A model generated the notes under the pieces. It saw nothing but the letters and a program-made list of their open reading frames with translations. It was not told the origin of the DNA and made no database searches. Shown piece by piece: positions 2,662 to 31,225 of a stretch of 44,964 nucleotides of DNA. The translations under genes were made by a program, and so were the position numbers. This DNA is from Treponema sp. (GTDB lineage Bacteria > Spirochaetota > Spirochaetia > Treponematales > Breznakiellaceae): the NCBI GenBank assembly GCA_009787775.1, contig WQSQ01000010.1:1-44964 (forward strand), given 5' to 3'. Every line of letters begins with the position of its first letter. The stretch's first letter is position 1.

Positions 2662-5490
2662 CTACTGTTTCGTCCAAACAGTACCGCCAGCAGCTCGTTT
2701 ATAAGTTCCTACCCCACCCGAAAGGTATTTAACCCGTAAATCACCGTCGAAAGAATAAATTGAACTAAAATTACCGGAAGCAATAGTACCCAGGAAAGTT
2801 ACACTTGTAAGGCTGCTGCAGTACTGGAACGCGTAATTGCCGATAGAAGTAACGCTGTTGGGGATTGTTATGCTTGTAAGGCCAGTGCAGTGTCGGAACG
2901 CCTCATAGCCGATAGAAGTAACGCTATTGGGGATTGTTATGCTTGTAAGGCCGCTGCAGCCCTCGAACGCACCATAGCCGATAGAATTAACGCTGTTGGG
3001 GGTTGTAAAGCTTCCGCTTAACGCTCCAGGTGCCTGAATAAGCGTAGTTTTTGTTTTATTGTATAATATCCCATCTTGGCTTGAATAATTCGGATTGGCA
3101 GCATCTACATTAATGCTTGTAAGTCCACTGCATCTAATGAACGCCTCAGAGCCGATAGAAGTAACGCCAGAGCCTATTGTTACGCTTGTAAGGCCGCTGC
3201 AGTTTTGGAATGCTAACCTGTCGATAAAAGTAACGCCTGCAGGGATTGTAAGGCTGCCTGTAAGACCTGAGCAGAGGGAGAACGCAAAATCGCCGATGCT
3301 TTGTAACTGACTGCCTGCAGCGAATACAAGACTTGTAAGATTGCCGCATTTTTGGAACGCAGCACTACCGATAGATGTAACGCCTGCGGGGATTGTAAAC
3401 GCGCCTGTAAGGCCGGTGCAATTATCAAACGCAGCATCGCCGATGCTTTGCAGCTGGCTTCCGGCAGCGAATGTTACACTTGTAAGGCCGGTTAAGTAAC
3501 CGAACGCACCCCAGCCGATAGAAGTAACGCTATTGGGGATTGTTATGCTTGTAAGGCTGGTGCAGCCAGAGAACGCGCTATTGCCGATAATAGTAACGCT
3601 ATTGCCGATTGTAACGCTTGTAAGGCCACTGCAGCCGTAGAACGCGCCCGCACCGATAGAAGTAACGCTGTTGGGGATTGTTACATTACCGCTAGCGGTT
3701 GGCCATGCAATAATCTCAGTTTTTGTTTTATTATACAATATGTTGTTCTGGGCTGAATAATTTGGATTATTTGTGTCTACTATGAAGTTTATAAGGCTGG
3801 TGCAGCCAGAGAACGCACCACCGCCGATAGTAATAACGCTGTCGGGGATGGTTATGCTTGTAAGGCTGCTGCAGTACTGGAACGCGTAATTGCCGATAGA
3901 AGTAACGCTATTTGGGATTGTTATGCTTGTAAGACCGGTGCAGCCAGAAAACGCCCGATTACCGATAGAAGTAACGCTATTGGGGATTGTTATGCTTGTA
4001 AGGCCGGTGCAGCCATAGAACGCCTCACCGCCGATAGAAGTAACGCTATTGGGGATTGTTATGCTTGTAAGGCCTCTGCAGTTATTGAACGCGCCATCGC
4101 CGATAGAAGTAACACTATTGGGGATTGTTATACTTGTAAGGCCGCTGCAAACGTAGAACGCGTAATTGCCGATAGAAGTAACGCTGTTTGGGATGGTTAC
4201 GCTTGTAAGGCTGCTGCAGTACTGGAACGCGTAATTGCCGATAGAAGTAACGCTGTCGGGGATTGTAATGCTTGTAAGGCCGCTGCAGGCGTAGAACGCA
4301 GAACTGCCGATAGAAGTGACTGGTCTACTGTTATATGTTGATGGGATTACCACCGCGCCTGTACTTACTGTGCCCTTTTTAACCTCATAAGCTGTGCTAT
4401 TATTTATCAGAGTGAATGCAAGGCCGGGGGTGGTTGTTTGTATATTGCCGGTTGCTGAGCAGATTTGGCAAATTTCTGTACTTGTTTCAACTCCGTTATT
4501 GGCAGGCGCAGCGTATGCAGTTATAACCCACTGGAAATTGTGCTCCAGAGCCGCAATCGCGCGTGTTGCGCTATGATCACAGCCTGTACGGGTGCAAGCG
4601 TCTGTTTCTATACCTGCCGCAGTACAGGTTGGCGCAGTTGTTACTGTCCAGCCTCCCATTATATGCCCAAGGGCGTTTACCGGATTTATATGTTCCTGCG
4701 CACTGCACCATGAACAGACTTGAGTTGTATAGCCTGCTGTTGTACAGGCAGGAGCTGTCACTTCTCCTGTTATCCAGTTGTGCACATTTTCATCGAGTTC
4801 AAAAAAGGAGCCTGTTTCTTCTATGTCACATAAATCACATTTTCTTTTTCCCGAGCCGTGTACTGTGCAGGTAGAGGGTGTTCCTTCAAGCTGTATCCAT
4901 TCGTGAGCGTCCGCGTCTATCGCGATAACCTCTGTTTTATTTAAACCGCAAGTTTTACAGGTTAATGTCCTGGAGCCTTCTGATACGCAGGTGGCGTGCA
5001 ATGTAACCGCAAGAAATTCCCAGCTGTGCGTGTGAGCTGTTTCGCCTGGATTGCCGCTTGCATCAGGCACTATAGAAGAAGAAAATGTTTCTGTAACATT
5101 TTTTTCGTCATATGTCCATGTAATGCTGCCGTTGAAGCTTGAAATACTTGTACCCGATACATTTACGATAAAGGTATTACTCTTGTCGGATTCAAGCTGG
5201 AAAACAGAATTAACAAAGGAGAGAACTTCTCCCTTGCTTACCTTTCCGTCGCTTATTGTAAGCGTGTAATAGTCTCCGCCTGTTATGGAAAAGGTCGCGC
5301 GTTTAATATTGGTGTTTTCCGTTATTAAAAGAGAATACGTTTTGCCGTCTGAAACAGCACTGAAAGGCTGCGTACGCGCTGCAGGTGTTACGTTTGCAGG
5401 CCCGCCGCCCGGGTCGCCGCAGGAAGCGAAAATAAAGGCGGCTGTTAAAATAATGGCGGTTATTCCAAATAGTTTTCCTGTCTTTTTCAT
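2662..5490 (-). CDS. BspA-family leucine-rich-repeat surface lipoprotein
   Basis: A 942-residue predicted lipoprotein. The signal peptide ends in the lipobox IFASC, so Cys23 or so would be lipidated. A domain of about 130 residues follows. Next, from about residue 150 to 350, come about five Cys/His-rich modules of the 'HxHxW...C...C..C' type with paired CxxC motifs, likely zinc-ribbon-like. The rest is 19 leucine-rich repeats of the LRR_5 type with the core 'SIGxxAFxxCxxLTSxTIP', broken twice by inserts containing '[17 protein letters not shown]'. Known BspA-like proteins bind fibronectin, fibrinogen or other host surfaces and help adhesion. AAAGGAG lies in front of the ATG. Near-identical neighbouring repeats suggest that repeat number can change by recombination. 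Confidence 0.92.
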
Positions 5491-10578: not shown

Positions 10579-11466
10579 GTGACCGGCAATATAAAAAAAA
10601 TAAAACTTTTAATTTTAATATTTTGCTTTACAATCCCGGGAATATATGCCCAGTCAAACACCGGTATTACAGGCACAATAAACTGGGAAACAATGTATTT
10701 AAATGTTGAAATAACGCTGGATTTGGTATCGGCGGGTATAAGGCTTCCGGCGGGGAGAACCCAGGGGGAATCGCTTTTAAACGCTGATTATCTTGGACTT
10801 ATAACGCCTGGCATTCTTGGATTACAGGCGGATTCCTCTTCCACTATCGCTGACCTTATTGACAGAAGGGAGTTTAGTCTTCTTGAAGCTGAATCAATTG
10901 CGCTTGGCGCGAATAAAACAGCGCCCGCTCTTTCTTCCGATATGCGAAAAATGTTTTCTTCTTATTCAATTTCACTTGCAAATATCAGCTCTGCTTTCCA
11001 TAGCAGCAGCCGTTCGTCCGCTGTTACCAGATTATTGAATCCTGTTTCCACAGCGCGTTACACCGGAATAGTAATTATCGCAGCAGACAGCCTGCCTGTT
11101 CACGGAATGAGGGGAACCGCTAAGGCTGTGCCTTGCCTGTTTCCGAAAATTTGGGACAGCGAAATGAACCTTATCTATGAAAAAAATATGCTGCACTCGC
11201 GCGATACGGCAATGGTGCGTTACTCTACAATGCAGAATATTTTCCAGAACAATCCTTCAGGACTTTCAAGAGAACTGCAGGATGTTGTGGGAGAGCGGCC
11301 TCTCAGAATCTTTGCGTGCGGCGTATATGGAATAAATCCCACAGACCTTATCATAGACAGAAGCGATGCGCTTTTAATTCTATCATCGGAAGAAAACCAG
11401 CGTCTTTTATCGCAGGGCCGTGTTGCGGTAATTCTGGATGAATCTGTACTGAAACATAATTATTAA
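10579..11466 (+). CDS. Secreted protein of unknown function
   Basis: A 295-residue protein with a clear signal peptide ('LLILIFCFTIPGIYAQ'). Mature text starts with 'GITGTINWETMYLNVEITLDL'-like beta strands (split here for length) and ends with a region 'ADSLPVHGMRGTAKAVPCLF' to 'RVAVILDESVLKHNY' that looks like a small alpha/beta domain. I do not recognise the family; a distant link to LPP20/FlgT-type envelope proteins is possible but weak. The start is GTG at 10579, the first possible start in frame after the stop of the upstream gene. It closes the envelope gene run and converges with the GH94 gene with only six bases between stops. Confidence 0.7.
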   Translation: MTGNIKKIKLLILIFCFTIPGIYAQSNTGITGTINWETMYLNVEITLDLVSAGIRLPAGRTQGESLLNADYLGLITPGILGLQADSSSTIADLIDRREFSLLEAESIALGANKTAPALSSDMRKMFSSYSISLANISSAFHSSSRSSAVTRLLNPVSTARYTGIVIIAADSLPVHGMRGTAKAVPCLFPKIWDSEMNLIYEKNMLHSRDTAMVRYSTMQNIFQNNPSGLSRELQDVVGERPLRIFACGVYGINPTDLIIDRSDALLILSSEENQRLLSQGRVAVILDESVLKHNY

Positions 11467-11472
11467 CTTGCC

Positions 11473-13830
11473 TCATAACGGTAATTTTACCGATAAATGG
11501 TAATCTTTTCCGCCTTCAATATCAGCTAAAATATTTGCGGCAAGGGTTTTTCCTTCGCATAACACTGTAACATCTTTTGCTTCAGAATCGCGCTTTATAT
11601 CAGCGTGAATCACCGCACCGCGAAAATACCGGGTAACTGCTGCCTGTTTCCAATGAGACGGGAAATTCGGGTGAACCGTCAGGCCTTCTTTTGTACCGCG
11701 AAGACCGAACAAACCGTCGATAAGACTTCGATAATACCATGACACCGCTCCTGTGTTAAACAGATGGCTGGAACGTCCTGCCGAATCCGGGAATTGATTG
11801 TAAGCTCCGCGGTAATAATTGGGAATATACACCGGCATTTGTCCGCGCTTTAAGATATCTTCTTTATCTTCACCAGGAAGCATTTTCCGTAAAAGTCTGA
11901 AAGCGCTGTCGTATTCCCCGCAGGTATAAAGAGCGTATATATAAAACATTGCTGCGTGATTATATACAGAGCCGTTCTCAACCGCGCCGGGCTGCTTTTG
12001 AGTCAGGCGTCCAATGTCTTCCCTCATAGCAGTGTACGGCGGAGTGAGTATTTCAACTCCAAAAGGCGTCTCAAGATATTTCTCAACAGATTCCGTCATT
12101 TTTTTTCTTTTATTTTCATCGGCGGCGCCGCATAAAACCGCCCAGCTTTGCGCGTTCAGGAAAATTTTACCTTCTTTATCCGAGCTTACTCCAAACAGAG
12201 CGCCGTCGTCCGTAATCCCGCGCGCGTACCAGCCGCCGTCCCATAACCACTTGTTTATAACGGCGTTCATTTCATCTGATTTCGAAAGATAGTTATCTGA
12301 AACTTCCTGTCTTCCGCATTCGCGGCAAATTCCGGCCCAGATGCGCAGCGCAAAAGAGGAAGCCATGGTCAGCCAGCCTGAAACACCCTTGCCTTTATAG
12401 CCCACCATGTTCATCGGATCGCACCAGTCGCCCTGACGGATATAGTTTAAACCTCTGTCATCCCGGTCATTTACAAGCCAATCCATCGCAAGATCGATAT
12501 GCTGAAAAACAGCCGCTGTTTTTTTACCGCTTTTAAACCGGACAACTTCATCAAGCAGCGCATAATCTCCCGTTTCATCAAGATACGCGCTTAATGCAAT
12601 CGGCAGCCATACGCAATGGTCGCTATGCGGTATCTGGTTTATATATTTCAATTCAGCCTGCGGGAATAATAAAATACCGTCCGGCATTTCGCCGTTTTCA
12701 TGCTGCTGATCCAAAGCGAACAATATCATGTTACGCGACATTTGCGGCATTACATAGCACATGCCCATTGTGTCCTGGATATAGTTACGCGTCTGCGGAT
12801 CTGTGCACATCCTGTTTGTTATGCCGTGGTAATAAACCTGACGGGGCAGCCAGTTATTTATAAAGTTATCAAAGTCTGCATCGGGAGAGGAAATCTGCAG
12901 CACTCCCTTACCCTGATTAATATAAGACGCGTAATCATTTTCAGCGCTGTCAAAATTGTTTCTGTAGCGTTCTGTAAGCGACAGAATCTCCTTTTCATCT
13001 TTTGCAGGACCGAAAATAAAGCGGAACTCATGTTCCTGCGTGCTTTCTATTTCTATCCGGTATTGCATAACAACAGCGAGTAATTCATACTGGCTGGCTG
13101 TGCAGGATAAATGATCAATGGCAATTGCTGAAGGAGAAGAAAGCCCTCCTTCTCCTTCAAATCTTTCAAGGCTTGTTTCCCACGCGGCGGGAGGATCCTG
13201 CGCCCAAAGGAAGGTCCTATCCTTATATTCTTTAATTTTTGGGTAATCTTCGGATTTCTGATAAGGCGTTACAGAAGAACATATTATCGCATTCAGCTTT
13301 TCATTATAAGCGCTGCTTTGGTTCATCCATGACATATAACCAACCGTAAAATACGGGTAAAGGCTCAGTTTGCGTTTTTTATTTGAATTGTTTTTAATTT
13401 TTATCCGCCATAATTCCAAAGAATCATGCTTTGGAAGACACAGGCTCATAGTAACTTCAATGGCGCTGCATTCTGTGCGCCAGAGTATTTTGTGTTTCCA
13501 TACCTGAAACGCGAAACGATCAGGTTTACGGCGGACAGGTTCATGAGGAGCGGAGAATAAAAAAGTGGTATCTTCTTCATCTTTTACAAATACAAAACGT
13601 CCGGGATGATGAGAATAATAAGGTTTTTCAGGAAGCATAAAATGTTTTGCTTCCATATTCGGCGCGTATGAATACTTTGCGGGCTCAGGCTGCATGAAGT
13701 ACGATGTCGCATAACCGCGGCAGGTAGCGTGAATCATCATCGTTTCATTCCACAAAAAGCCGCCAGCCTTTGGCATACTGACAGGGTCTGTCAGCTCATA
13801 ATAATCACCGTCACCGCCTGAATGCATCAT
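11473..13830 (-). CDS. GH94 glycoside phosphorylase (possibly cellobionate phosphorylase)
   Basis: A 785-residue cytoplasmic enzyme of glycoside hydrolase family 94, which splits beta-linked disaccharides with phosphate to give a sugar 1-phosphate and the free second unit. The N-terminal beta-sandwich has 'YAPNMEAKHFMLPEKPYY' and 'HHPGRFVFVKDEE'. The (alpha/alpha)6 barrel has 'RQVYYHGITNRMCTDPQTR', 'HSDHCVWLPIALSAYL' and 'YIRQGDWCDPMNMVG', where the Asp in the GDWCDP block is the expected general acid. There is no signal peptide. Length fits cellobiose, cellobionate or chitobiose phosphorylases (about 780-820). Being last gene of an operon with a gluconate-dehydrogenase-like SDR makes an aldobionic acid such as cellobionate a plausible substrate; this is inference. 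A GGAGG lies ahead of the ATG pair. Confidence 0.88.
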   Translation of the reverse strand: MMHSGGDGDYYELTDPVSMPKAGGFLWNETMMIHATCRGYATSYFMQPEPAKYSYAPNMEAKHFMLPEKPYYSHHPGRFVFVKDEEDTTFLFSAPHEPVRRKPDRFAFQVWKHKILWRTECSAIEVTMSLCLPKHDSLELWRIKIKNNSNKKRKLSLYPYFTVGYMSWMNQSSAYNEKLNAIICSSVTPYQKSEDYPKIKEYKDRTFLWAQDPPAAWETSLERFEGEGGLSSPSAIAIDHLSCTASQYELLAVVMQYRIEIESTQEHEFRFIFGPAKDEKEILSLTERYRNNFDSAENDYASYINQGKGVLQISSPDADFDNFINNWLPRQVYYHGITNRMCTDPQTRNYIQDTMGMCYVMPQMSRNMILFALDQQHENGEMPDGILLFPQAELKYINQIPHSDHCVWLPIALSAYLDETGDYALLDEVVRFKSGKKTAAVFQHIDLAMDWLVNDRDDRGLNYIRQGDWCDPMNMVGYKGKGVSGWLTMASSFALRIWAGICRECGRQEVSDNYLSKSDEMNAVINKWLWDGGWYARGITDDGALFGVSSDKEGKIFLNAQSWAVLCGAADENKRKKMTESVEKYLETPFGVEILTPPYTAMREDIGRLTQKQPGAVENGSVYNHAAMFYIYALYTCGEYDSAFRLLRKMLPGEDKEDILKRGQMPVYIPNYYRGAYNQFPDSAGRSSHLFNTGAVSWYYRSLIDGLFGLRGTKEGLTVHPNFPSHWKQAAVTRYFRGAVIHADIKRDSEAKDVTVLCEGKTLAANILADIEGGKDYHLSVKLPL

Positions 13831-13857
13831 ATTCCAGTTTCCTCCATGAAAAAAAAA

Positions 13858-14706
13858 TTAACCTTTTATTCCGGTTGTCGCGATACCTTCGACAAAATAT
13901 TTTTGACAGAAGAAAAACAAAATGATAACAGGCAAAACCGCCACAGAAGACATAGCCATTACAATTTTCCAGGGAATAACAGTTTCGGCATCCAGGGTTA
14001 AGCGCAGCGCAAGGGAAACAGGAAATTTTTTTATGCTGTTGATGTAGATCAACGGATTAAAATAATCGTTATATGTCCATAAAAACTGGAACAATCCCGC
14101 CGAGAACAGAGCAGGCTTAAGAAGCGGCAGTAGAATACTTATAAGAGTCCTGAAAGAATTGCATCCGTCAATGCGGGCCGATTCGTCCAGTTCCTTTGGG
14201 ATCCCCCGTATAAATTGAACAAGCATATAGGTAAAGAACGGATAGCAGGCAAAAGCGGACATCATGTAAAACGGACCGTAGCTGTCAAGAACGCGTAAAT
14301 CACGAAAAATAGAATAACGGGGAATGAGCATAATGGAGTTTGGCAGCATAAGCGTTGAAAGCAAAATAATAAATAAAACCTTTTTCCCCCTGAACTCAAA
14401 ACGTGCGAACCCGTATGCTACAAGTGCGCTGGATATAACAGTAAATAACGCAGTAGGTATTACAAGCAGAAAAGAATTTGCAAAGAACCTTGTAAAAGTA
14501 TTACCGCTAACGCCTCTCCAGCCGTCACGGTATGCGTCAAAGCTGAATTTCTCCGGTAATAAAACAATTCCGGTAAATATTTCCCTGTTTTCCTTAAAAC
14601 TGGCGAAAAACATCCACAACAGGGGATAACAAAGAAACGCCGCTAAGATTGTCAAGGCGGTAATTGAAATTGCATCCGGTATTTTTGATTTATTTAATAC
14701 TGACAT
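13858..14706 (-). CDS. Sugar ABC transporter permease (MalG type)
   Basis: A 282-residue inner-membrane permease of the carbohydrate uptake family CUT1 with six predicted helices. The cytoplasmic EAA loop reads 'ELDESARIDGCNSFRTLIS', where the conserved 'DGA' Gly contacts the ATPase, and the C-terminal 'FVEGIATTGIKG' is typical of MalG-like subunits. It pairs with the permease encoded just upstream (20-base gap). A GGAGG ribosome binding site precedes the ATG. No ATP-binding subunit is encoded in the operon, so a shared MsmK/UgpC-type ATPase elsewhere in the genome is expected. Confidence 0.93.
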   Translation of the reverse strand: MSVLNKSKIPDAISITALTILAAFLCYPLLWMFFASFKENREIFTGIVLLPEKFSFDAYRDGWRGVSGNTFTRFFANSFLLVIPTALFTVISSALVAYGFARFEFRGKKVLFIILLSTLMLPNSIMLIPRYSIFRDLRVLDSYGPFYMMSAFACYPFFTYMLVQFIRGIPKELDESARIDGCNSFRTLISILLPLLKPALFSAGLFQFLWTYNDYFNPLIYINSIKKFPVSLALRLTLDAETVIPWKIVMAMSSVAVLPVIILFFFCQKYFVEGIATTGIKG

Positions 14707-14726
14707 GGCAGTTTACCTCCATCCTT

Positions 14727-15623
14727 TCAGCTTTCATCGCTGTAGAAAACCCAATATTTCTGGCTGATAAACAATAATGCGGTAAAAACTGCTATTATCG
14801 AAAAGATAATCCACGATGTCGCGCTTGCGTATCCCATTCTCCAGAATTGAAATCCGTCATTGTAAAGTTTAAGGCTAAGCAAATAAGTGGACTTAAGGGG
14901 CGTGCCGCGCCCCTGAGTTATAATGAATATAGATGTAAAATTCTGGATTGCGTTTAACGTCTGCATGATAATACAGAAGAAAAGAACAGGCGATATGTAA
15001 GGTAAAGTAATTTTGAAAAAACTATGCGCCCTTCCCGCGCCGTCAATAAGCGCGGCTTCATAAAGATGAGAAGGCACCTGCTTTAACGCGGCCAGAAATA
15101 AAACCATCGAAGATCCGAACTGCCATACTTCAAGTAAACTAAATGTCGGAAGAGCCAATTTCGTGCTGCCCCAAAATGTAACTGTCGAAATACCAATGGA
15201 ATTTAAAAAAGCATTAACCATCCCGTAATCCATAAACATAATCTGCCAAAGAACCGCAACCGCTACGCTTCCGCCGAATAAGGAAGGCAGATAGAAAGCT
15301 GTACGCAATATGCCGATTCCTCTTCTGGAACGGTTCAGCAAGACAGCTATAAAAAGAGACATAATGAGTTTTAAAGGCACTGTGTATATTACATAAAGAA
15401 GGGTCGCCCTTAATGAAATGAAAAATTCAGGATCTATTGTAAAAAGTCTTTTAAAGTTATTAAAACCGACAAAAGAAGGTTCTCTTAAAGGATTATAATC
15501 ACAAAGAGCATAATAAAAAGAAATAATAAACGGATATAACTGTAATACCAAAATACCGATTATCCAAGGCAATAAATAAAGGTAAGCTGCATTATTATAC
15601 TTGGTTAGGCTTCTTCCTTTCAT
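14727..15623 (-). CDS. Sugar ABC transporter permease (MalF type)
   Basis: A 298-residue CUT1 permease with six predicted helices. Typical text includes the N-terminal 'YLYLLPWIIGILVLQLYPFI', the 'GFNNFKRLF' segment and the EAA loop 'YEAALIDGAGRAHSFFKITL'. It forms the membrane pore with the MalG-type subunit. GGAGC sits seven bases before the ATG. The gap to the upstream binding-protein gene is 114 bases and contains a stem-loop, the usual site where expression of the membrane subunits is lowered relative to the binding protein. Confidence 0.93.
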   Translation of the reverse strand: MKGRSLTKYNNAAYLYLLPWIIGILVLQLYPFIISFYYALCDYNPLREPSFVGFNNFKRLFTIDPEFFISLRATLLYVIYTVPLKLIMSLFIAVLLNRSRRGIGILRTAFYLPSLFGGSVAVAVLWQIMFMDYGMVNAFLNSIGISTVTFWGSTKLALPTFSLLEVWQFGSSMVLFLAALKQVPSHLYEAALIDGAGRAHSFFKITLPYISPVLFFCIIMQTLNAIQNFTSIFIITQGRGTPLKSTYLLSLKLYNDGFQFWRMGYASATSWIIFSIIAVFTALLFISQKYWVFYSDES

Positions 15624-15681
15624 AATAGCTCCATACAGGATTTTTTAAAAGCGCTGAATTCCTAGTTTCAAAAATGAAGGT

Positions 15682-15710
15682 CTGCAGGCAGATAATATAC
15701 CTGCCTACAG
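15682..15710 (-). promoter_or_regulatory. Stem-loop between binding protein and permease genes
   Basis: Arms CTGCAGGCAG (15682-15691) and CTGCCTACAG (15701-15710) pair with one G-U in a nine-base loop. There is no T-run in the minus direction. Such hairpins after a binding-protein gene usually protect the upstream mRNA from 3' exonucleases. Confidence 0.65.
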
Positions 15711-15737
15711 AAAATCTACAGTCCGTGCTATATAGAA

Positions 15738-17021
15738 TTACTGACGGGAAAGGAAATCATTAATCTGGGCGACTACCTCTCTTGCAGCTACCTGAGGCGT
15801 CTTTGTGCCAAAGGAAACTGCCTCATAGGCTGCCAATAAAATGGCAGTAACTTCTGCGCCTGTGGTGAATCCTGCGTCATCTTTGCCATTATACGTCATA
15901 CTTACTTCCATAGCCTGTGCTACAAGCGGATTTACAAACCCCGCATTTGCTATAATCTGTTGGGCAAAGGCTGTCGGCGGTGTGGAGCGGACGTCTTTTA
16001 AGAGTATGGCGGCTTGTTCTGAATTAAAGAAGAAATTCAGGAAGGTGGCCGCTTCTTCAGGATACCTTGTACCGGAATAAATTCCCATATACTGCGGAGT
16101 ATTATTAAACCAGCCATCGTCGCGCTTGTTGGGTAAAAGAGGTAAACGTCCTGCTATATATTGGACACTGGGATTGGCTGATTGAAGTACCGCCGCATTG
16201 GAGCCGTAACCGACAGAGGCGACATATTTTCCCGCGATCCAGTTGGGATCATTCTGATCCTGATCTCCGAAAGAAGCCTTGTAGGCTGCGGGGGCTGCGG
16301 TTCCGGTTTTATACAGCCTGTCAATGAAATCAAATAATTGCGTAAATTGAGCTTCGGTCATGTTAAGCCTCTTGTTCGCGTCATCAATGATCGGCATACC
16401 TGCAATCTGACGGGCATAAGCGCGGACAAAGAAAGGCATTCCATGTACTTGATTCACTGATAAAAGATAACAAGTCGGATCCGCCGCACGTACCTGCTGA
16501 CCCCATGTAATAAGCTGTTCCCAGTCGTACTGTCTGGTAAAGTCAATTCCTAATCTGTCGGCAAGAGTCTTATTGACAATCACCGCGGTTCCTGCCATAC
16601 CTGTCGGAATTGCGTACTGTTGTCTTGTTCCGAACTGTCCGTTTGCTACAAGAAAACTTGGACTAAATTTTTCAAAGCTGATTGAATTAAGCCTTGACAG
16701 GTTATAAAGAACCCCCAGTCTTTGGTATTCGGGTCCCGCTCCTGTTTCTATCTGAAAGATATCCGGAGCGGTTCTTGACGCGAATTCTGTCGTTTTCTTT
16801 TCATTGTAACCTGCCTGAGCGCCATATTCGGGTTCAATTCTGATGTTCGGGTATTGCCTGTGGAACGCGTCAATTACAGCTAACGTAGCTTCATGGCGAG
16901 CATCGGTGCCCCACCATGAAAACCGTAATGTAACAACATTGTCACTGGCTCCGGTTGCCCATAATGAGGCAGTCATCACGATACACAACACGAAGAACAT
17001 CACCATTTTAAGTTTCTTCAT
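15738..17021 (-). CDS. Sugar ABC transporter substrate-binding protein
   Basis: A 427-residue extracellular solute-binding protein, family 1, that captures a carbohydrate in the periplasm and delivers it to the two permeases. The signal peptide core 'MVMFFVLCIVMTASLWATG' is followed by the family opening 'VTLRFSWWGTDARHEAT' and the 'FHRQYPNIRIEPEYG' stretch. A later 'ATFLNFFFNSEQAAILL' block is also typical. Many aromatic residues suggest sugar stacking. GGAGGAG precedes the ATG. It is the gene right after the GarR-like reductase, so the transported compound is most likely what the operon degrades. Confidence 0.93.
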   Translation of the reverse strand: MKKLKMVMFFVLCIVMTASLWATGASDNVVTLRFSWWGTDARHEATLAVIDAFHRQYPNIRIEPEYGAQAGYNEKKTTEFASRTAPDIFQIETGAGPEYQRLGVLYNLSRLNSISFEKFSPSFLVANGQFGTRQQYAIPTGMAGTAVIVNKTLADRLGIDFTRQYDWEQLITWGQQVRAADPTCYLLSVNQVHGMPFFVRAYARQIAGMPIIDDANKRLNMTEAQFTQLFDFIDRLYKTGTAAPAAYKASFGDQDQNDPNWIAGKYVASVGYGSNAAVLQSANPSVQYIAGRLPLLPNKRDDGWFNNTPQYMGIYSGTRYPEEAATFLNFFFNSEQAAILLKDVRSTPPTAFAQQIIANAGFVNPLVAQAMEVSMTYNGKDDAGFTTGAEVTAILLAAYEAVSFGTKTPQVAAREVVAQINDFLSRQ

Positions 17022-17059
17022 TTTTCACTCCTCCAGAAAAAATAATTTATTAAAAAACC

Positions 17060-17956
17060 CTAACGGGTCTTTTTGCCGATTTCTTCGCCGGAAATTTTCG
17101 CGTAATATTTCGCGAGTGCGCTGTGATCGCAGCTTCCATCTCCGTCAGCGCGCAGCGACTGGAACATCTCCATTACAGTTGATGTAAGCGGTAAAGGAGA
17201 GGCGGCGGCGTGTCCTGTGTCAAGAGCGTTCGCCAGGTCCTTAATGTGAAGATCGATACGGAAGCCCGGTTTAAAATCGCCGGAAATCATCATCGGCGCT
17301 TTCGCGTTCATCACGGTAGAACCCGCAAGACCGCCCTTTATTGCCTGGAAAACCAGCTCCGGATCCACGCCCGCTTTTTTTGCCAATGTCAGCGCTTCCG
17401 CCAGAGCGGCGATATTGCAGGCAACGATTATCTGATTGGCGAGCTTCGTCGTGTTTCCCGCGCCTATCCCGCCGCAATAAACGGCCGAAGCTCCCATTTT
17501 TAAAAGAATGTCGTCTTTTACGCTTTCAAACAGGGCTCTGTCGCCTCCTGCCATGATGGAAAGAGTACCGTCAATTGCCTTTGGCTCTCCTCCTGAAACG
17601 GGGGCGTCAAGCATCTTTATGCCCGCTTTTTCGCATTCGCAGGCGATTTCCCTTGAAACGCCCGGAGCGATGGAAGACATGTCAATCAAAACGGCTCCTT
17701 TCTTCGCGCCTTCCAGAACGCCGTTTTCACCTAACACAACTGTTTTAACATGGGGAGAATTTGGAAGCATGGTGATAATGTGTTCGCAGGAACTTGCCGC
17801 TTCTTTCGGCGAGGAGGCCGCCTCGGCGCCGGCCGCGACAGCATCCTTTACAGCCTCTTTCACAATGTCAAACACAACAAGCTGATGTCCCGCCTTTATA
17901 AGATTTTTCGCCATGGGCTTTCCCATAATGCCAAGGCCGATGAATCCGATTTTCAT
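17060..17956 (-). CDS. GarR-like beta-hydroxyacid dehydrogenase (tartronate semialdehyde reductase family)
   Basis: A 298-residue NAD(P)-dependent reductase of the 3-hydroxyisobutyrate dehydrogenase family. The Rossmann motif is 'GFIGLGIMGKPMAKNL' at residues 4-19. The substrate-site block 'DAPVSGGEPKAIDGTLSIM' is almost that of enteric GarR. The catalytic Lys is in 'GNTTKLANQI' and the C-terminal domain has 'LHIKDLANALD'. GarR reduces tartronate semialdehyde to glycerate. Here no glycerate kinase or carboligase accompanies it, so it may act on another short semialdehyde acid made by the transketolase. GAGAGG lies six bases before the ATG. It is the gene after transketolase subunit C (14-base gap). 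Confidence 0.88.
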   Translation of the reverse strand: MKIGFIGLGIMGKPMAKNLIKAGHQLVVFDIVKEAVKDAVAAGAEAASSPKEAASSCEHIITMLPNSPHVKTVVLGENGVLEGAKKGAVLIDMSSIAPGVSREIACECEKAGIKMLDAPVSGGEPKAIDGTLSIMAGGDRALFESVKDDILLKMGASAVYCGGIGAGNTTKLANQIIVACNIAALAEALTLAKKAGVDPELVFQAIKGGLAGSTVMNAKAPMMISGDFKPGFRIDLHIKDLANALDTGHAAASPLPLTSTVMEMFQSLRADGDGSCDHSALAKYYAKISGEEIGKKTR

Positions 17957-17970
17957 ATAAACCTCTCAAT

Positions 17971-18909
17971 TTAATTTAATAACGCGACCGCTTTATCCGC
18001 TATCGCGCCGGCGGTCAGTCCGTAATGTTCAAGAAGATCGCCAAGACTGTGCGCGCTCTGGCCGAACCTGTCCCTGATGGCTACATAGTCCATCGGCACG
18101 GCGCTTTTTCTGAGAGCCATTGCGGCATGAGATGCAAGACCCCCAATATAGCTGTGGTCTTCCGCCGTTACAATCGCCTTTACGCGTTTTGACAGCTCAA
18201 GCAAACCTTCCGTGTCAAAAGGTTTCATGGTGCCCGCGTTTATCACGGCCGCCTTAATCCCTTTTTCCTCCAGGATGTCGGACGCGTTCATCGCCGCCTC
18301 AACCATTATACCGTGGGCAATGATCGCGCACACCGCATCATCGCGGTCTTTTAACGCGCGCAGCTTTCCGGGAATGAAATCGCCTTTTGTATACGCGGGC
18401 ACATCGGCGCGCGTTACGCGAATATAAACCGGACCTTCAATGGCCGCGGCGGCGCGTACGGACTTGCGTACTTCATCCGCGTCCGCGGGGGTAAAAACCG
18501 TCATGTTTGGAATGGCGCTCATAATCGCGATGTCTTCAACAGCCTGGTGCGTGCTGCCGTCTCCAAAGTCGGAAAGACCGGATGATGATCCGCATATTTT
18601 TACATTCAATTTGCCGATCGCGACAGTCTGGCGTATTTGATCATAGGCGCGCCCTGACGCGAAAACGGCGAATGATGAGCAAAAAGCGATTTTCCCGGAT
18701 GCGGCAAGCCCCGCCGCCGTCGATATCATGTTCGCCTCGGCAATACCCATTTCAAAATACCGATCCGGATGCGCCGCCTGAAACAGGGAGGACATGGTTG
18801 ATTTGCCAAGATCGGCTTCCAGCGCCACAACATTGGGGTTTTCGGCGCCAAGAGCCGTAATTGCCTCACCGTATGCCAGTCTTTGACTGTATTTTTCCAT
18901 AATAGCCAT
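17971..18909 (-). CDS. Transketolase, C-terminal subunit
   Basis: A 312-residue pyrimidine-binding plus C-terminal part of a split transketolase. The cofactor-activating glutamate is in 'FEMGIAEANMISTAAGLA', and 'VTAEDHSYIGGLASHAAMAL' belongs to the C-terminal domain. 'SSGLSDFGDGSTHQAVED' carries the active-site His region. With the N-terminal subunit it would form a thiamin-diphosphate enzyme that moves two-carbon ketol units. Split forms are common in archaea and in specialised catabolic operons, for instance for apiose and sulfoquinovose. The start could be ATG at 18909 or 18900. It is unusual that a 159-base hairpin-rich gap separates it from its partner gene. Confidence 0.93.
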   Translation of the reverse strand: MAIMEKYSQRLAYGEAITALGAENPNVVALEADLGKSTMSSLFQAAHPDRYFEMGIAEANMISTAAGLAASGKIAFCSSFAVFASGRAYDQIRQTVAIGKLNVKICGSSSGLSDFGDGSTHQAVEDIAIMSAIPNMTVFTPADADEVRKSVRAAAAIEGPVYIRVTRADVPAYTKGDFIPGKLRALKDRDDAVCAIIAHGIMVEAAMNASDILEEKGIKAAVINAGTMKPFDTEGLLELSKRVKAIVTAEDHSYIGGLASHAAMALRKSAVPMDYVAIRDRFGQSAHSLGDLLEHYGLTAGAIADKAVALLN

Positions 18910-18933
18910 TACCTCTAATAAAATAAATATTAG

Positions 18934-19067
18934 AGTTGTTCGATAACTTCAGTTTATCGAACAACTACCTTATAAAAATGGCATTTTGTAGGGCGCGAAC
19001 CAAAGGTTCGATAGCCCGAAAAATGCAAGGACTTGTGAGACAACTTACCGAGTTGTCGAACAAGTCC
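18934..19067. repeat. Three-hairpin element between the transketolase subunit genes
   Basis: Three successive hairpins fill the gap: a perfect 13-bp stem (18934-18946 with 18954-18966), a longer bulged stem at 18981-19026 whose tip is CGAACC/GGTTCG, and the dispersed palindrome GGACTTGT...ACAAGTCC at 19029-19067, of which a copy is at 353-402. The last arm ends two bases from the stop codon of the transketolase N subunit. No strong T-run is present, so read-through with mRNA processing or partial termination is likely. Confidence 0.8.
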
Positions 19068-19068
19068 A

Positions 19069-19905
19069 TTATAACAACCTGGCAATTTCCCTATCCAGTT
19101 GAAAAAGAGCCATATCGTATTGTTCTTTTGTCAGCGCTCCGTTGTGAAATGCGGCCTGATTCTCCGCAAAAGCGATGCCTTTGCCTTTTACGGTATTTGC
19201 GATAATTACAGCGGGCTTGCCGTTAATACCGGCGGCCTCATCATAGGCTGACATGATGGCGTCAACATCATGGCCGTCAATTTCAATTACATGCCACCCG
19301 AAACCGGCCCATTTTTCAGCCAGCGGATTTGTGTCAAAACGATCCTTGATAAAACCGGTTGCCTGCATCGCGTTGCGGTCAACAATGCCAATCAGATTGT
19401 CCAGTTTAAAATTGACGGCGGCCATAACGGCTTCCCATATCTGCCCTTCAGCCATTTCTCCGTCTCCCATCACGCAGTAAACCCTGCCATCACGTTTGTC
19501 CAGTTTCATCGCCAATGCCATGCCCGCGGCGATGCTCAACCCCTGCCCAAGACTTCCGGTGCCAGCTTCAATGCCGGGAGTCCTCAGCCGGTCGGGATGC
19601 CCCTGCAGCATTGAACCGAGTTCTTTTACTTTCCATAATTCTTCACGCTCGAAATAGCCGACTTCAGCCATCGCGGCATATTGAGCGATTGCCGCGTGGC
19701 CTTTACTGTAAATGAATTTGTCACGATCTTCCCACTTTGGATTATCAGAACGGAAACGCAGATATCCGCCATAAAGGGCCGCGACGAGTTCCGCGCTTGA
19801 ACAGGAACCTCCAAGGTGCCCTACCTGTCCGCCGCAGCCAATCATTTGAACAATGTTACGGCGAATTTTACAGGCAAGCATTTTTATACCGTTTGATTTA
19901 TTCAT
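19069..19905 (-). CDS. Transketolase, N-terminal subunit
   Basis: A 278-residue thiamin-diphosphate-binding half of a split transketolase. The ThDP/Mg motif starts at 'GDGEMAEGQIWEAVMAA' and ends with the Asn of 'IGIVDRN'. 'SKGHAAIAQYAAM' and 'GSLGQGLSIAAGMALAMK' hold the phosphate and substrate-channel His and Gly residues. The chosen start is ATG at 19905 because GGAGG lies six bases ahead; an ATG eight codons further up has no such site. Its start overlaps the stop of the GntR gene by eight bases. Length is normal for this subunit. In the operon it probably cleaves a keto-sugar acid or sugar made by the SDR. Confidence 0.93.
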   Translation of the reverse strand: MNKSNGIKMLACKIRRNIVQMIGCGGQVGHLGGSCSSAELVAALYGGYLRFRSDNPKWEDRDKFIYSKGHAAIAQYAAMAEVGYFEREELWKVKELGSMLQGHPDRLRTPGIEAGTGSLGQGLSIAAGMALAMKLDKRDGRVYCVMGDGEMAEGQIWEAVMAAVNFKLDNLIGIVDRNAMQATGFIKDRFDTNPLAEKWAGFGWHVIEIDGHDVDAIMSAYDEAAGINGKPAVIIANTVKGKGIAFAENQAAFHNGALTKEQYDMALFQLDREIARLL

Positions 19906-20647
19906 ATAACGCCTCCACTGGATGTTCACCCATACGCGTTATCATATCAGCGTAAGTATCATCAATATGCCTTGTCATTAAAAGGCGGCATCCTTCTGTA
20001 TCCTTGGAAATGATTTTATCAATAATCAGCCGGTGATAATAAAGACCCTGTGAGTGTCCGCGCTTTTCGACAATGTTTCTCATCGCTGTCCGCAATAAAT
20101 CTTCGATCAGGTTGTAACATTCAACAATCAATGAATTACGGCTGATGACGGCAAGCTCATAATGAAAACAGTAGTCCGCCTCTGAATACTCCTCCAGACT
20201 GCCTTTATTCAGTTCCATCTCGGTAAAAGTCATTTCAAGCTTTTCGATATCATCCGCATCGGCTTTTTTTGCCGCAAGCTCCGCGGTATAGCTCTCTATC
20301 GCCTTTCTAAACTCCAGCACCGAGAGCATATTATCGTCATTTAAATACGCGATGGGTACCAGACTTGAGATGGACTGCCTGTGAGACAAAGTGCATATAT
20401 ATGTCCCTTCGCCTGGCTGTGTCTGCGCAAGGCCAAGCGCTACCAGACGATGAATGCCCTGCCGGATGGTAATGCGGCTGACTCCAAAAAGAGAGGCCAG
20501 ATTGTTCTCGGAGGGCAGGCGCGTACCAGACACCCAATTCCCCGACAGTATCAGGCTTTTCATCTGATCAAAAACCTGATCGCTCACATTCAGGCGGCGA
20601 ATCGGTTTTATGCTCACAGAATTCAATACTTGGTGTCGTACGGCCAA
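19898..20647 (-). CDS. GntR-family regulator, FCD (FadR) subfamily
   Basis: A 249-residue regulator. The winged helix-turn-helix is near the N-terminus: 'QMKSLILSGNWVSGTRLPSE', then 'LASLFGVSRITIRQGIHRL' and the wing 'GEGTYIC'. The FCD ligand-binding helical domain covers the C-terminal two-thirds ('VLEFRKAIESYTAELAAK', 'FHYELAVISRNSLIVECY'), with Asp/His residues that usually hold a metal and an organic-acid effector. A TTG at 20647 is chosen as start because GGGAGG lies six bases ahead; an ATG at 20668 lacks a good site. The start lies inside the SDR gene. FCD regulators typically respond to sugar acids, which fits the operon. Confidence 0.87.
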   Translation of the reverse strand: MAVRHQVLNSVSIKPIRRLNVSDQVFDQMKSLILSGNWVSGTRLPSENNLASLFGVSRITIRQGIHRLVALGLAQTQPGEGTYICTLSHRQSISSLVPIAYLNDDNMLSVLEFRKAIESYTAELAAKKADADDIEKLEMTFTEMELNKGSLEEYSEADYCFHYELAVISRNSLIVECYNLIEDLLRTAMRNIVEKRGHSQGLYYHRLIIDKIISKDTEGCRLLMTRHIDDTYADMITRMGEHPVEALYE

Positions 20648-21438
20648 GGTGCGCCTCCCGCCAAACATCCGCCGTCTACATGAAACATGGAGCCGGTAAT
20701 ATACGAAGACGAATCGGATGCCAGCATAACCGCGATACCCAGCAATTCATCAGGATTGCCGGGACGCTTCATCGCTATGCGTTCTCGAAGATATTTGCTG
20801 CGTTCGGGGTGTTCCCATGTTACTGTTGTAAGGCTGGTAAGAATATGACCCGGCGCAAGCGCGTTGGCGCGGATTCCGTACTGCGCCCATTCAATAGCCA
20901 TGCTTCGGGTCAAGGCGGCCACTGCGCTCTTGCTTGCGCCGTATACGCTGCACCCTCCAAGCATTCCAACCGAGTTATGCGATGCGATATTGATGATATT
21001 CCCTTTCTTTTGCTTTATCATATGCTTTGCGGTCTCCTGGGAAATAAAATACAGACCCTTTAGATTGATATTCATAATCCTGTCATAAGTTGATTCCTCT
21101 ACATCCAGAAAACCTTCCCTTACATTAATTCCTGCGCAGTTAACAAGCACGTCAATGCGTCCATAATCTTCCATTACGGCATCAACGCATTTTTTAATAC
21201 TGTCCATTTCGATCAGGTCCAATTGATAACAGCCTGCCTTGCCGCCATTTTCTTTTATTCCTTCGGCTATGGCATTCAACCTGGATAGATCAAGATCGCC
21301 CAACGCCATCACGGCGCCCGTGCCGGCAAAACCTTCCGCAAGCACTTTACCTATGCCGCCCGCGGCTCCGGTAAGTAATATTGTTTTGTTTTCAAGAGAA
21401 AACAGTTTTTCCAGATTTTGATTAATGGATAAAGGCAT
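20623..21438 (-). CDS. SDR dehydrogenase, gluconate 5-dehydrogenase/KduD-like
   Basis: A 271-residue classical short-chain dehydrogenase. The cofactor motif is 'TGAAGGIGKVLAEGFA' (about residues 23-38), 'VNCAGI' is at about 101, the catalytic Ser is in 'INIASHNS' and Tyr/Lys in 'SVYGASKSAV'. The text 'APGHILTSLT' and 'DGGCLAGGAPWPY' is close to gluconate 5-dehydrogenase and KduD-like enzymes that interconvert a hydroxyl and a keto group on sugar acids. It is the first gene of the operon, with AAAAGGAG before the ATG and a consensus promoter about 100 bases upstream. Direction of reaction and exact substrate are not known. Confidence 0.88.
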   Translation of the reverse strand: MPLSINQNLEKLFSLENKTILLTGAAGGIGKVLAEGFAGTGAVMALGDLDLSRLNAIAEGIKENGGKAGCYQLDLIEMDSIKKCVDAVMEDYGRIDVLVNCAGINVREGFLDVEESTYDRIMNINLKGLYFISQETAKHMIKQKKGNIINIASHNSVGMLGGCSVYGASKSAVAALTRSMAIEWAQYGIRANALAPGHILTSLTTVTWEHPERSKYLRERIAMKRPGNPDELLGIAVMLASDSSSYITGSMFHVDGGCLAGGAPWPYDTKY

Positions 21439-21484
21439 TAAAGCTCCTTTTAAGCCGACAATTTTCAGTATGAAAATCCGCCAA

Positions 21485-21518
21485 TCAGCGAAAAATCGCT
21501 GAGTACCTGTCTACCTGT
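21485..21518 (-). promoter_or_regulatory. Leader hairpin and direct repeat upstream of the sugar operon
   Basis: In the leader of the SDR gene a perfect hairpin (TCAGCGA/TCGCTGA, 21485-21502) is followed, nearer the promoter, by a tandem eight-base repeat (GTACCTGT at 21503-21510, CTACCTGT at 21511-21518). The repeat could be an operator half-site pair for the GntR protein. This is inferred from position only. Confidence 0.45.
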
Positions 21519-21541
21519 AATACATCATAGAAGCGGTTTTT

Positions 21542-21571
21542 ATTATAAAATGGGTTAATTTCATTTGTCAA
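21542..21571 (-). promoter_or_regulatory. Sigma-70-type promoter of the sugar operon
   Basis: On the minus strand TTGACA (21566-21571) and TATAAT (21542-21547) are both full consensus, 18 bases apart. Transcription would start near 21535, giving a leader of about 95 bases before the SDR gene. It is the strongest promoter match in the window. Confidence 0.85.
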
Positions 21572-29640: not shown

Positions 29641-31128
29641 TTACTGTTCCACCCAGGCCCTGCTTCTTTCTACAGCTTTATGCCAGTCTTTAATCAGTTT
29701 ACCGCGTTTCTCATCTATCATCTGCGGATTAAATATGACATCACGCCGCCAGTATTTTTTCATCTCTTCCGTATCTTTCCAAAAGCCAACGGTAATACCT
29801 GCAAGACAGGCGGCGCCGAGAGCAGTTGTCTCTCTTACTACAGGGCGCACAATGTCTGCGCCGCAAATATCAGACTGAAACTGCATGAGAAAGCAATCCC
29901 TGCTCGCTCCCCCGTCAACCTTGAGTTCTTTCATCGAAACGCCAAGGTCGTTTTCCATCGCACGCAGAAGATCCATTACCTGATAAGCGATGGATTCCTG
30001 AGCCGCCCTTACAATGTGCGCGCGTTTTGTACCGCGCGTAATCCCCATGATACAGCCGCGGGCATACATATCCCAATAGGGAGCGCCAAGGCCTGTAAAA
30101 GCCGGAACAATGTAAACGCCTCCGGTGTCGTGAACTTTAAGCGCGTAATACTCGCTGTCGGCGCTGTCTGTGATAATGCGCATTTCATCGCGCAGCCACT
30201 GGATTACGGCGCCTCCTGTAAAGACAGAACCTTCAAGCGCGTAACTGACATTATTATCAAACCCTGCGGCGATTGTTGTTAATAGACCGTTCCCGCTTGA
30301 GGCCGCTTTCTCTCCGGTATTCATCAGCAGAAAGCAGCCGGTGCCGTAGGTGCATTTCGCGTCCCCTTTATCAAAACAACACTGGCCGAAGAGAGCCGCC
30401 TGCTGATCTCCTGCGTTACCCGCAATTGGAATCTCTATGCCGTTATATATAGCGCGCGCAAAATGAGCGCCTGAGGGCATAACCTGCGGAAGCATCGCGC
30501 GGGGAATATCAAGCGCGTTAAGGAGCCTTTCGTCCCAGTCAAGTTTATGAATGTCAAAGATCATTGTGCGGCTTGCGTTTGTATAATCGGTAACATGCGC
30601 CTTTGCGCCTGAAAGATTCCATATAAGCCATGTGTCAACAGTACCGAAAAGTATCTCGCCGTTATTTGCCCTCCTGCGCGTTCCTTCAACATTGTCCAAT
30701 ATCCATTTGATTTTTGTTCCCGAGAAATACGCGTCAGGCACTAATCCTGTCGTCTTTTTGATATAATCTCCAAGCCCGTCTTTATTAAGCGAATCGATAA
30801 TGGAAGAAGTCCTTCTGCACTGCCAGACTATCGCGTTATAAACCGGCTGCCCTGTATTCTTGTCCCAGAGAATAGTTGTCTCACGCTGGTTTGTTATTCC
30901 GACAGCCGTAATATCCCGCGCGTCAACATTCGATTTAACGATTAGATCGTTCATAACAGTATATTGCGAAGACAGTATTTCCATCGGGTCATGCTCAACC
31001 CAGCCTTCTTTAGGATATATTTGCCTGAATTCCTTGTGTTCTTCACCGACAATATTTTGCTCTCTGTCAAAAAGCATGGCCCTGGAACTTGTAGTTCCCT
31101 GATCCAGAGAAAGAATATATTTACTCAT
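29641..31128 (-). CDS. glpK: Glycerol kinase
   Basis: A 495-residue cytoplasmic kinase that converts glycerol to glycerol 3-phosphate. The FGGY-family motifs are clear: '[16 protein letters not shown]' at residues 5-20, '[17 protein letters not shown]' with the glycerol-binding Arg-Glu, '[14 protein letters not shown]', '[14 protein letters not shown]' with the catalytic Asp, and '[17 protein letters not shown]'. Length matches E. coli GlpK (about 500). AAAGGAG precedes the ATG. No glycerol facilitator or dehydrogenase gene is next to it. The three-unit palindrome array lies about 100-160 bases upstream and could affect its expression. Confidence 0.96.
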
Positions 31129-31225
31129 TTAATTACTCCTTGAATAAAGAGGCATAATGAATGGATTATAACATGAATAGCTTACTGCCATGCGGCAAAA
31201 ATGCTTTTATATTGTTTGGTATTCA

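Follow-up and report, generated by a model that had tools for sequence, protein, structure and literature searches.

Gene content and organization of the operon

The window, a stretch of 44,964 nucleotides of a Treponema sp. genome that is 71% complete, contains nine full-length and intact open reading frames between positions 11473 and 21438, all on the minus strand, the SDR gene being first and the GH94 gene last in transcription order. Listed in the direction of transcription, with the intervening gap at the end, the features are:

21571-21542, minus strand: sigma-70 consensus promoter TTGACA-N18-TATAAT (pattern only), 12/12 positions matching
20623-21438, minus strand: SDR dehydrogenase (SDR1), KduD- or gluconate 5-dehydrogenase-like, from profile and PDB matches and homologues
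19898-20668, minus strand: GntR-family regulator with FCD domain, from a domain match
19069-19929, minus strand: TktN, thiamine-diphosphate-binding half of a split S-class transketolase (PF00456; 6yak, 269 bits)
17971-18909, minus strand: TktC, pyrimidine-binding and C-terminal half of the split S-class transketolase (PF02779, PF02780), with Ser109 at the position of E. coli His461
17060-17956, minus strand: GarR-type 2-hydroxy-3-oxopropionate (tartronate semialdehyde) reductase, from equivalog profiles and E. coli identity
15738-17021, minus strand: sugar-type solute-binding protein of an ABC transporter, from a domain match
14727-15623, minus strand: ABC transporter permease A, from domain or profile matches
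13858-14706, minus strand: ABC transporter permease B, from domain or profile matches
11473-13830, minus strand: GH94 cellobionic acid phosphorylase (by sequence), from Pfam, the 4zle match and site residues
18910-19068, minus strand: gap of 159 bases between TktN and TktC with a repeated hairpin at 18934-18966; outside the operon core

The nine-gene set is operon-like because the intergenic gaps range only from -46 to 159 bases (in transcription order -46, -32, 159, 14, 38, 114, 20, and 27). A scan of 11.5 kb gave 35 promoter-like sites, of which this promoter ranked best; shuffled sequences contained a mean of 19.9. A previous sequence-only reading had placed GH94, SDR, split transketolase, and GarR-like genes in one operon on one strand behind a consensus promoter, without a kinase or aldolase; all four functions were recognized by sequence, strand and promoter were as described, and neither a kinase nor an aldolase was found among the nine genes. 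The title of that reading left out the regulator and the ABC transporter genes, which also belong to the operon. An ABC transporter ATPase gene is absent from the nine annotated genes. GntR-type genes adjoin many loci of the transketolase-GarR module described below.

The GH94 protein contains the catalytic and supersandwich domains of its family (PF17167, 225 bits; PF06165, 81 bits) and matched the phosphorylase SdCBAP (4zle) with 1053 bits over residues 6-784, whereas every other PDB match reached at most 221 bits. This fits the earlier assignment as an aldobionic-acid phosphorylase. The stretches around SdCBAP R609, K613, and Q347 are conserved, with GRLTQK at 607-612 aligning with SdCBAP GRVTQK; R609 and K613 are the carboxylate-binding residues. 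Q347 is described as a substrate-site residue (PMC5309861), and in a review table (PMC8950772), 4ZLE is entered as a cellobionic acid phosphorylase whose acceptor is D-gluconate. With this full-length match and the conserved acceptor-site stretches, there is a strong case from sequence that the window's GH94 is a cellobionic acid phosphorylase. CBAP-like GH94 proteins (E up to 1e-100) occurred in only 3 of 195 genomes of the family, and all three carry the transketolase-GarR module.

For the SDR, the earlier reading had proposed oxidation of gluconate at C5. The enzyme is gluconate-5-dehydrogenase-like in that its two best PDB matches are both named gluconate dehydrogenases and that it is 36% identical to IdnO of the E. 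coli L-idonate system idnDOTRK, but it stayed below the curated cut-offs, scoring 208.6 bits with gluconate 5-dehydrogenase PRK08085 (cut-off 408) and 212.5 bits with KduD PRK06935 (cut-off 369). It is possible that it works like gluconate 5-dehydrogenase. A 61% homologue lies in the same kind of operon at locus L191; in genome G293, of another family in the same phylum, a 61% homologue occurs in the order TktN-TktC-GarR-SDR.

All nine genes recur in genome G166 (locus L034) with 72-87% identity, so the grouping is more than chance. In G175 (L033), the genes from the SDR onward are likewise present until the contig ends within the solute-binding protein gene, and the GH94 gene is found on another contig (93% identity). 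The sequence-only reading had named a neighborhood that is not kept in relatives as a refutation; as these genes stay together, that objection fails.

A transketolase clade linked to GarR

TktN and TktC are the two halves of one transketolase, a gene arrangement also known from AptAB, the catabolic apulose 4-phosphate transketolase. Ser109 of TktC replaces the phosphate-binding His461 (E. coli TktA numbering, used throughout), which is the criterion for canonical pentose-phosphate transketolases, and the phosphate-site residues R358, S385, and R520 are retained. In one set of loci, all 33 that encode both TktC and GarR have Ser at position 461. We compared 41 S-class loci with 74 other transketolase loci, and since Ser461 and the GDG motif were the rule by which loci were sorted into the S-class, these two are circular as evidence in this comparison. 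Besides H461S, the S-class shows P27L (39/41), I189A (40/41), D190T (39/41), and G262N, L466D, G467F/Y, and E468G (41/41 each), and these seven positions sit beside active-site residues. H26, H66, H100, H261, R358, S385, E411, D469, H473, and R520, among them the catalytic His and Glu residues, are kept in all 41 loci. In a tree from a quick search without bootstrap, the S-class was one clade (28/28 rows, SH-aLRT 100), as were, in a second tree, the 33 S rows (support 100) that remain when L204, which has a His-type motif, is not counted among them. The window's type-A transketolase forms a long branch separate from type B, a point that counts against the route proposed below.

Neighbor counts from tblastn showed GarR adjoining 44 of 55 S-class loci (41 of 52 distinct ones, as three contigs were counted twice) in comparison to 0 of 98 other transketolase loci. 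The S-class module was found in several Spirochaetota families, in one Clostridia assembly, and in Propionivibrio, where the stretch examined was without GarR.

It has been reported that the E. coli TktA variant R358I/H461S/R520Q has 55.3% enhanced activity on 5-ketogluconate, which is converted to tartaric semialdehyde (PMC12016104). The donor and the bond proposed here are the same, and H461S is natural in the S-class; in contrast to the variant, a laboratory enzyme that belongs to no natural pathway, the natural clade keeps R358 and R520. H461S alone is weak evidence, as the variant also carries the R358 and R520 exchanges and as H461 is lost elsewhere: a second split transketolase clade, which is widespread in the family, has Asp461/Asn469 (TDPGVTAAFNGGTH, 17/20 stretches). 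Position 461 hence also varies for other reasons, and the H461S change by itself does not prove that the donor is a keto acid.

It could be argued that TktN/TktC works as an ordinary pentose-phosphate transketolase whose place in a sugar operon is accidental, with the SDR and GarR catalyzing unrelated steps. The retained phosphate-site residues would agree with this, arabinofuranosidase or GH43 genes occur close to some of the S-class loci, a setting in which a pentose-phosphate transketolase would be of use, and the only other PF00456 match in the incomplete window genome is weak and located in a 676-residue frame. However, G166, G175, and G174, which belong to the same genus and have the module, possess a separate transketolase of another clade (L072, L159, and L160), the S-class changes are clade-wide, and the GarR linkage is confined to S-class loci, so that we consider this explanation unlikely.

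A catabolic transketolase for an unphosphorylated anionic ketose has a precedent in the sulfo-transketolase pathway (SqvD, SqwGH, SqwI, SqwF), in which a ketol is moved to glyceraldehyde 3-phosphate, with one variant reducing the leftover aldehyde (PMC11659671). The system proposed here is alike in both respects, but it differs in having a carboxylate instead of a sulfonate, a donor that is formed through oxidation by an SDR and not by an isomerase, a GarR-type reductase, and a GH94 feed; the two are compared here at the level of pathway descriptions. One could go further and regard the S-class enzyme as SqwGH itself or a close relative, with the module serving sulfosugars, and the phosphate-site changes would suit any non-phosphate anion. 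Yet the operon encodes a cellobionic acid phosphorylase and a GarR of the tartronate semialdehyde reductase type, and the SQ isomerase SqvD, the SqwI isomerase, and a sulfoquinovosidase are not among its nine genes, which makes a sulfoquinovose pathway very improbable.

The chain length of the cleaved sugar acid

The earlier reading had proposed that the GarR-like enzyme reduces a C4 semialdehyde, which is one of two candidate chemistries. The window's GarR exceeded the cut-offs of both NCBI 2-hydroxy-3-oxopropionate reductase equivalogs (PRK11559, 471.8 against 397; TIGR01505, 424.1 against 340.75), it shares 67% identity with E. coli GarR, and 138 of the 149 columns that are >90% conserved in module GarRs match the E. 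coli enzyme. At three distinct loci of relatives (L040, L057, and L191), a glycerate kinase is encoded inside the cluster. Among the 38 module genomes, which were defined by TktN scores and all show the S-class motif, 30 contain the glycerate kinase GarK or the unrelated GckA, in comparison to 79 of 157 other genomes (Fisher p 0.001, uncorrected for kinship and completeness). GarK alone is no marker of the module (19/38 versus 60/157, p 0.13), and the association is clear only together with GckA. Ten chosen module genomes have exactly one of the two kinases each, and in eight of the 38 neither was seen, seven of these being <90% complete. The in-cluster and module-enriched glycerate kinase suggests a C3 product, which fits better than a C4 product because GarR is closest to the C3 enzyme tartronate semialdehyde reductase and because L040, L057, and L191 contain the kinase.

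A divergent transaldolase (84 bits against an NCBI cut-off of 367) adjoins the module at five distinct loci, and a 59% relative adjoins the S-class transketolase of G146. Starting from a C6 acid, it could lead to this C3 product as well. Together with the C3-type GarR and the glycerate kinases in the clusters of relatives, it points to a C5 acid being converted to tartronate semialdehyde and glycerate, and in several relatives this conversion looks likelier than that of a C6 to a C4 acid. A transaldolase by which gluconate could still be led to a C3 product was rejected for the type-A genomes: G000, G175, and G174 gave no match, and the match in G166 was a weak fragment.

A route that is one carbon shorter would have the S-class transketolase cleave a 4-keto-pentonate (e.g., 4-keto-D-arabinonate) to tartronate semialdehyde, which GarR and a glycerate kinase would convert via glycerate, with the window's GH94 representing a different or added branch. 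The GarR similarity, the glycerate kinase distribution, and the divergent transaldolase favor this route, but the acid expected from the window's phosphorylase is gluconate, which has six carbons, the SDR is similar to hexonate 5-dehydrogenases, neither GarK nor GckA was seen in some module genomes, and GarK alone is not enriched. As an account of the whole system, we regard it as possible but doubtful. For the window, the phosphorylase still favors gluconate as the released acid.

A search for a four-carbon acid kinase (PF07005) gave no match in the genomes G000, G166, G175, and G174, so a C4 acid would be excreted or put to other use. In the same four type-A genomes, no gluconokinase scored above the cut-off in a profile search, the FGGY kinases reaching at most 170 bits against a cut-off of 649. 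The adjoining FGGY kinase at 29641-31128 was rejected as a gluconokinase, as it passes the glycerol kinase cut-off. To our knowledge, all described uses of the gluconate half of cellobionate go via kinases. An E. coli study expects it to enter the Entner-Doudoroff or pentose phosphate routes (PMC4403981), which differs from the situation here, where no gluconokinase was recognized. Parts of the system resemble E. coli garPLRK for galactarate and glucarate, including a GarK at L040 with 48% identity, and idnDOTRK, with an MDR at L057 that is 31% identical to IdnD. Unlike in these systems, there is no GarL-type aldolase in the operon and no gluconokinase was found; a transketolase stands in place of aldolase or kinase.

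A proposed transketolase route for keto sugar acids

The S-class changes, the GarR linkage, the H461S precedent, and the lack of a gluconokinase over cut-off together give good sequence support for a transketolase route dedicated to an unphosphorylated keto sugar acid, which is fed here by cellobionate, and we consider this the probable function of the operon. Cellobionate would be imported by the ABC transporter, and GH94, the step with strong support, would cleave it phosphorolytically to glucose 1-phosphate and gluconate. The SDR would then oxidize gluconate beside the CH2OH end to 5-ketogluconate, which would carry the D-threo arrangement at C3/C4 required of transketolase donors. From this donor, as clade, residues, and linkage suggest, TktN/TktC would pass the two-carbon ketol to a sugar phosphate acceptor, for example glyceraldehyde 3-phosphate, yielding xylulose 5-phosphate and a carboxylated semialdehyde. 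The GarR-type enzyme would finally reduce the semialdehyde and thereby give back the NAD(P)H that the SDR step had generated. Within this dedicated route, we lean slightly toward conversion of a C6 acid to the C4 tartaric semialdehyde and then threonate in the window, and the conversion of a C5 acid to tartronate semialdehyde and then glycerate has a chance a little short of even.

A broader and more tentative scheme, which we would not rate as likely, is that sugar acids enter without a kinase, keto-aldonates being opened through the transfer of either a ketol or a dihydroxyacetone unit. The S-class transketolase would cut 4-keto-pentonates and the divergent transaldolase 5-keto-hexonates, both to tartronate semialdehyde, which a shared GarR and glycerate kinase would process via glycerate, and the window would be a branch with an added cellobionic acid phosphorylase.

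In the mainly non-subscription literature searched, we found no description of this operon or of a natural bacterial keto-aldonate transketolase pathway. For grape, transketolase cleavage of 5-ketogluconate has been proposed in tartrate synthesis (PMC11066805), and our finding could bear on whether this cleavage exists as a dedicated reaction. If the dedicated route is true, it would provide a natural counterpart of the TktA engineered for tartrate production (PMC12016104). Clear residues and a clear linkage define the S-class clade, which makes it directly testable. With a natural transketolase acting on a keto sugar acid that carries no phosphate, the pentose phosphate network would gain a new point of entry. 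Lytic polysaccharide monooxygenases, wherever they are active, yield oxidized cellulose fragments such as cellobionate, and the cell probably feeds on such a fragment by means of a specialized transketolase that cuts a sugar acid without prior phosphorylation.

Operon layout and its recurrence in the genus

The operon lies on the minus strand of the window (11473-21438) in a genome represented by a 2.04 Mb assembly that is 71% complete, and it comprises nine genes in the order SDR (a KduD/gluconate 5-dehydrogenase-like dehydrogenase), GntR regulator, TktN and TktC (the two halves of a split transketolase), GarR, solute-binding protein, two permeases, and GH94. The intergenic gaps are short, save for one of 114 bases ahead of the permeases and one of 159 bases that separates TktN from TktC, and a sigma-70 pattern with a 12/12 match, identified as a pattern only, is found at 21571-21542. 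The operon described in the sequence-only reading was confirmed, and all nine genes are present again in the genus-mate G166 (locus L034). In a second genus-mate, G175, the genes recur until the contig ends within the solute-binding protein, and GH94 (93%) is located on a separate contig. The third, G174, has retained the SDR, TktN (its match containing one in-frame stop), TktC, and the ABC genes; no GntR regulator was seen at this locus, no GarR was found between TktC and the solute-binding protein, and the genome gave no GH94 match at E 1e-100.

The TktN-TktC gap (18910-19068) contains a 33-base hairpin, of which the genome has one identical copy and one copy with 3 mismatches elsewhere, and a 61-base piece at the other end of the gap has a 79% copy at window positions 344-403. 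The corresponding gap measures about 6-23 bases in the sister loci L033-L035, and the operon has probably acquired a small dispersed repeat at this point. Elsewhere in the window, another possible sugar operon (29641-34207) has, all on the same strand, a glycerol kinase followed by two TIM-barrel genes resembling isomerases or epimerases and an oxidoreductase of the Gfo/Idh/MocA type, a fusion joins a caspase domain to a formylglycine-generating-enzyme-like domain (43106-44734), and a BspA-type leucine-rich repeat protein has 942 residues (2662-5490).

A transketolase clade with Ser461 and its linkage to GarR

TktN and TktC together span a complete split transketolase. With E. coli TktA as the reference for residue numbering, H26, H66, H100, H261, E411, H473, and D469, as well as the phosphate-site residues R358, S385, and R520, are retained in 41/41 loci with the motif of a class, here termed S-class, in which His461 is replaced by Ser (n=41). 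In comparison with 74 loci without the motif, class-wide changes beside residues that we take to line the active site are P27L (39/41), I189A (40/41), and D190T (39/41), and the further changes G262N, L466D, G467F/Y, and E468G each occur in 41/41. Because Ser461 and GDG decided the assignment to these sets of 41 and 74 loci, the evidence is circular for the sorting positions but not for the remaining ones, and in a check free of motif sorting, Ser461 was present in all 33 loci holding both TktC and GarR.

The S-class formed one clade with a support of 100 (28 rows; quick search, SH-aLRT only), and it did so again, with 33 rows and the same support, when the tree was enlarged by 13 S-class rows from further families of the same phylum (L204, which is of the His type, left out). 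Within the S-class, type A, comprising the window and its three genus-mates, is a long-branched group apart from all others (type B), and this bears on any conclusion about the window that is drawn from type B loci. The S-class pair is also present in Propionivibrio soli (L076; the stretch examined has no GarR) and in two Clostridia assemblies, without GarR in L078 and with GarR in L132.

We searched 155 sequences, of which the 153 with a TktC match were classed by motif alone, and counted GarR at 50% identity or more. GarR was matched in 44/55 S-class loci (41/52 distinct ones, as the contigs L039/L073, L040/L075, and L043/L074 were counted twice) versus 0/98 other transketolase loci, 20 of which are short stretches with little flank; as the S-class is one clade, the 44 linkages are not independent events. 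The SDR2-type dehydrogenase, which is the usual dehydrogenase of the module (S-class transketolase with neighbors such as GarR) outside the window's genus, was found in 34/55 versus 0/98 loci. GarR was not matched in 11 S-class loci; at least two of these, L038 and L054, stop at a contig edge near TktC, and L035 and L060 seem truly to be without it. The neighborhood, whose retention in relatives had been in question, is kept far past the genus. The window transketolase is a member of a separate clade that is widely distributed and linked to a reductase of the GarR type.

Several other features of these loci may be recorded. A second split transketolase, widespread in the family, has an unusual motif of its own, of the type TDPGVTAAFNGGTH (Asp461, Asn469; L072, L159-L166, L168-L170, L173-L178), which was also found in a Petrotoga record (L139). 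An Asp/Glu racemase-family protein (PF01177) adjoins the S-class transketolase in L076 (9274-9936), L132 (9285-9953), and, by similarity, L064, and a TIM-barrel epimerase-like protein is present in L191, L132, L052, L064, and L039/L073; both could possibly adjust the stereochemistry of a keto acid. GH43 in L192 and arabinofuranosidase genes in L203, near the S-class transketolase, with similar-looking genes judged by eye in L195 and L200, are hints of pentose-containing polymers. In L050 (genome G139, no GH94), a window-type ABC transporter (72-77%) adjoins an aldehyde dehydrogenase and the S-class module.

Gluconate and the possible donor of the transketolase

The best solved relative of the GH94 enzyme is the cellobionic acid phosphorylase of Saccharophagus degradans (SdCBAP, 4zle; 1053 bits over residues 6-784), all remaining PDB matches reaching at most 221 bits. 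Sequence is conserved in the regions that contain SdCBAP Q347, R609, and K613, the last two presumably being carboxylate-binding. Because of this closeness, glucose 1-phosphate and gluconate are the likely products. An equally close GH94 (E up to 1e-100) was found in 3/195 family genomes, all three of which have the module. No gluconokinase model scored over its cut-off in the window's own genome (G000), G166, G175, or G174, whose FGGY kinases reached at most 170 bits versus a cut-off of 649. The SDR falls under the NCBI cut-offs for both gluconate 5-dehydrogenase and KduD, and its activity is therefore putative.

Transketolase donors need the D-threo configuration, which, by textbook stereochemistry, 5-keto-D-gluconate, 4-keto-D-arabinonate, and D-fructuronate provide equally. 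The engineered E. coli TktA variant R358I/H461S/R520Q had 55.3% enhanced activity on 5-ketogluconate, according to the part of PMC12016104 that cites Wang et al. 2022, and PMC11066805 gives a proposal that tartrate synthesis in grape involves the splitting of 5-ketogluconate by a transketolase. As H461S is part of this mutant, and in view of the grape proposal, the natural Ser461 is suggestive of a keto-acid donor, but it is not proof, because 17/20 further transketolase stretches of the window's family have Asp at position 461 and Asn at 469.

A four-carbon or three-carbon product

The sequence-only reading led from 5-ketogluconate to a C4 semialdehyde that GarR would reduce. GarR from the window shares 67% identity with its E. 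coli namesake, 138/149 columns conserved to >90% among module GarRs agree with the E. coli protein, and the NCBI cut-offs for 2-hydroxy-3-oxopropionate reductase are passed, all of which counts against a C4 semialdehyde as its substrate. A GarK-type glycerate kinase lies inside the cluster in L040, L057, and L191. GarK or the unrelated glycerate kinase GckA was found in 30/38 module genomes (drawn from TktN scores; S-class motif seen in 38/38) versus 79/157 others (Fisher p 0.001, ignoring relatedness and completeness), GarK taken alone showing no enrichment in module genomes (p 0.13). Each of ten selected module genomes has one kinase of the pair but not the other, and 8/38 have neither. GarK and GckA seem to replace each other, only G031 and G115 of the 195 family genomes being listed with both.

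A divergent transaldolase adjoins the S-class transketolase in five distinct loci (L038, L039/L073, L192, L195, and L198), together with GarR and a KduD-like SDR in L192, L195, and L198; the L192 protein (11108-12133) scored 84 bits versus a cut-off of 367. Transaldolase action on a 5-keto-hexonate would yield tartronate semialdehyde, as would transketolase action on a 4-keto-pentonate, so that one GarR could serve both. Bar one weak fragment match in G166, this transaldolase is absent from the four type A genomes, in which no four-carbon acid kinase (PF07005) was found either. For the window, the phosphorylase points to gluconate and through it to a C4 product, which is one of two possibilities, beside C3.

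Among described systems, the sulfo-transketolase pathway comes closest in its logic. As outlined in PMC11659671, SqwGH there transfers the ketol group of sulfofructose to glyceraldehyde 3-phosphate, and the pathway ends with reduction or oxidation of a sulfonated aldehyde. The likeness is one of logic and implies no membership; the isomerases and sulfoquinovosidase of that pathway are absent from the window operon. The sequence data give good support to the proposed route, in which a dedicated transketolase would act on a sugar acid.
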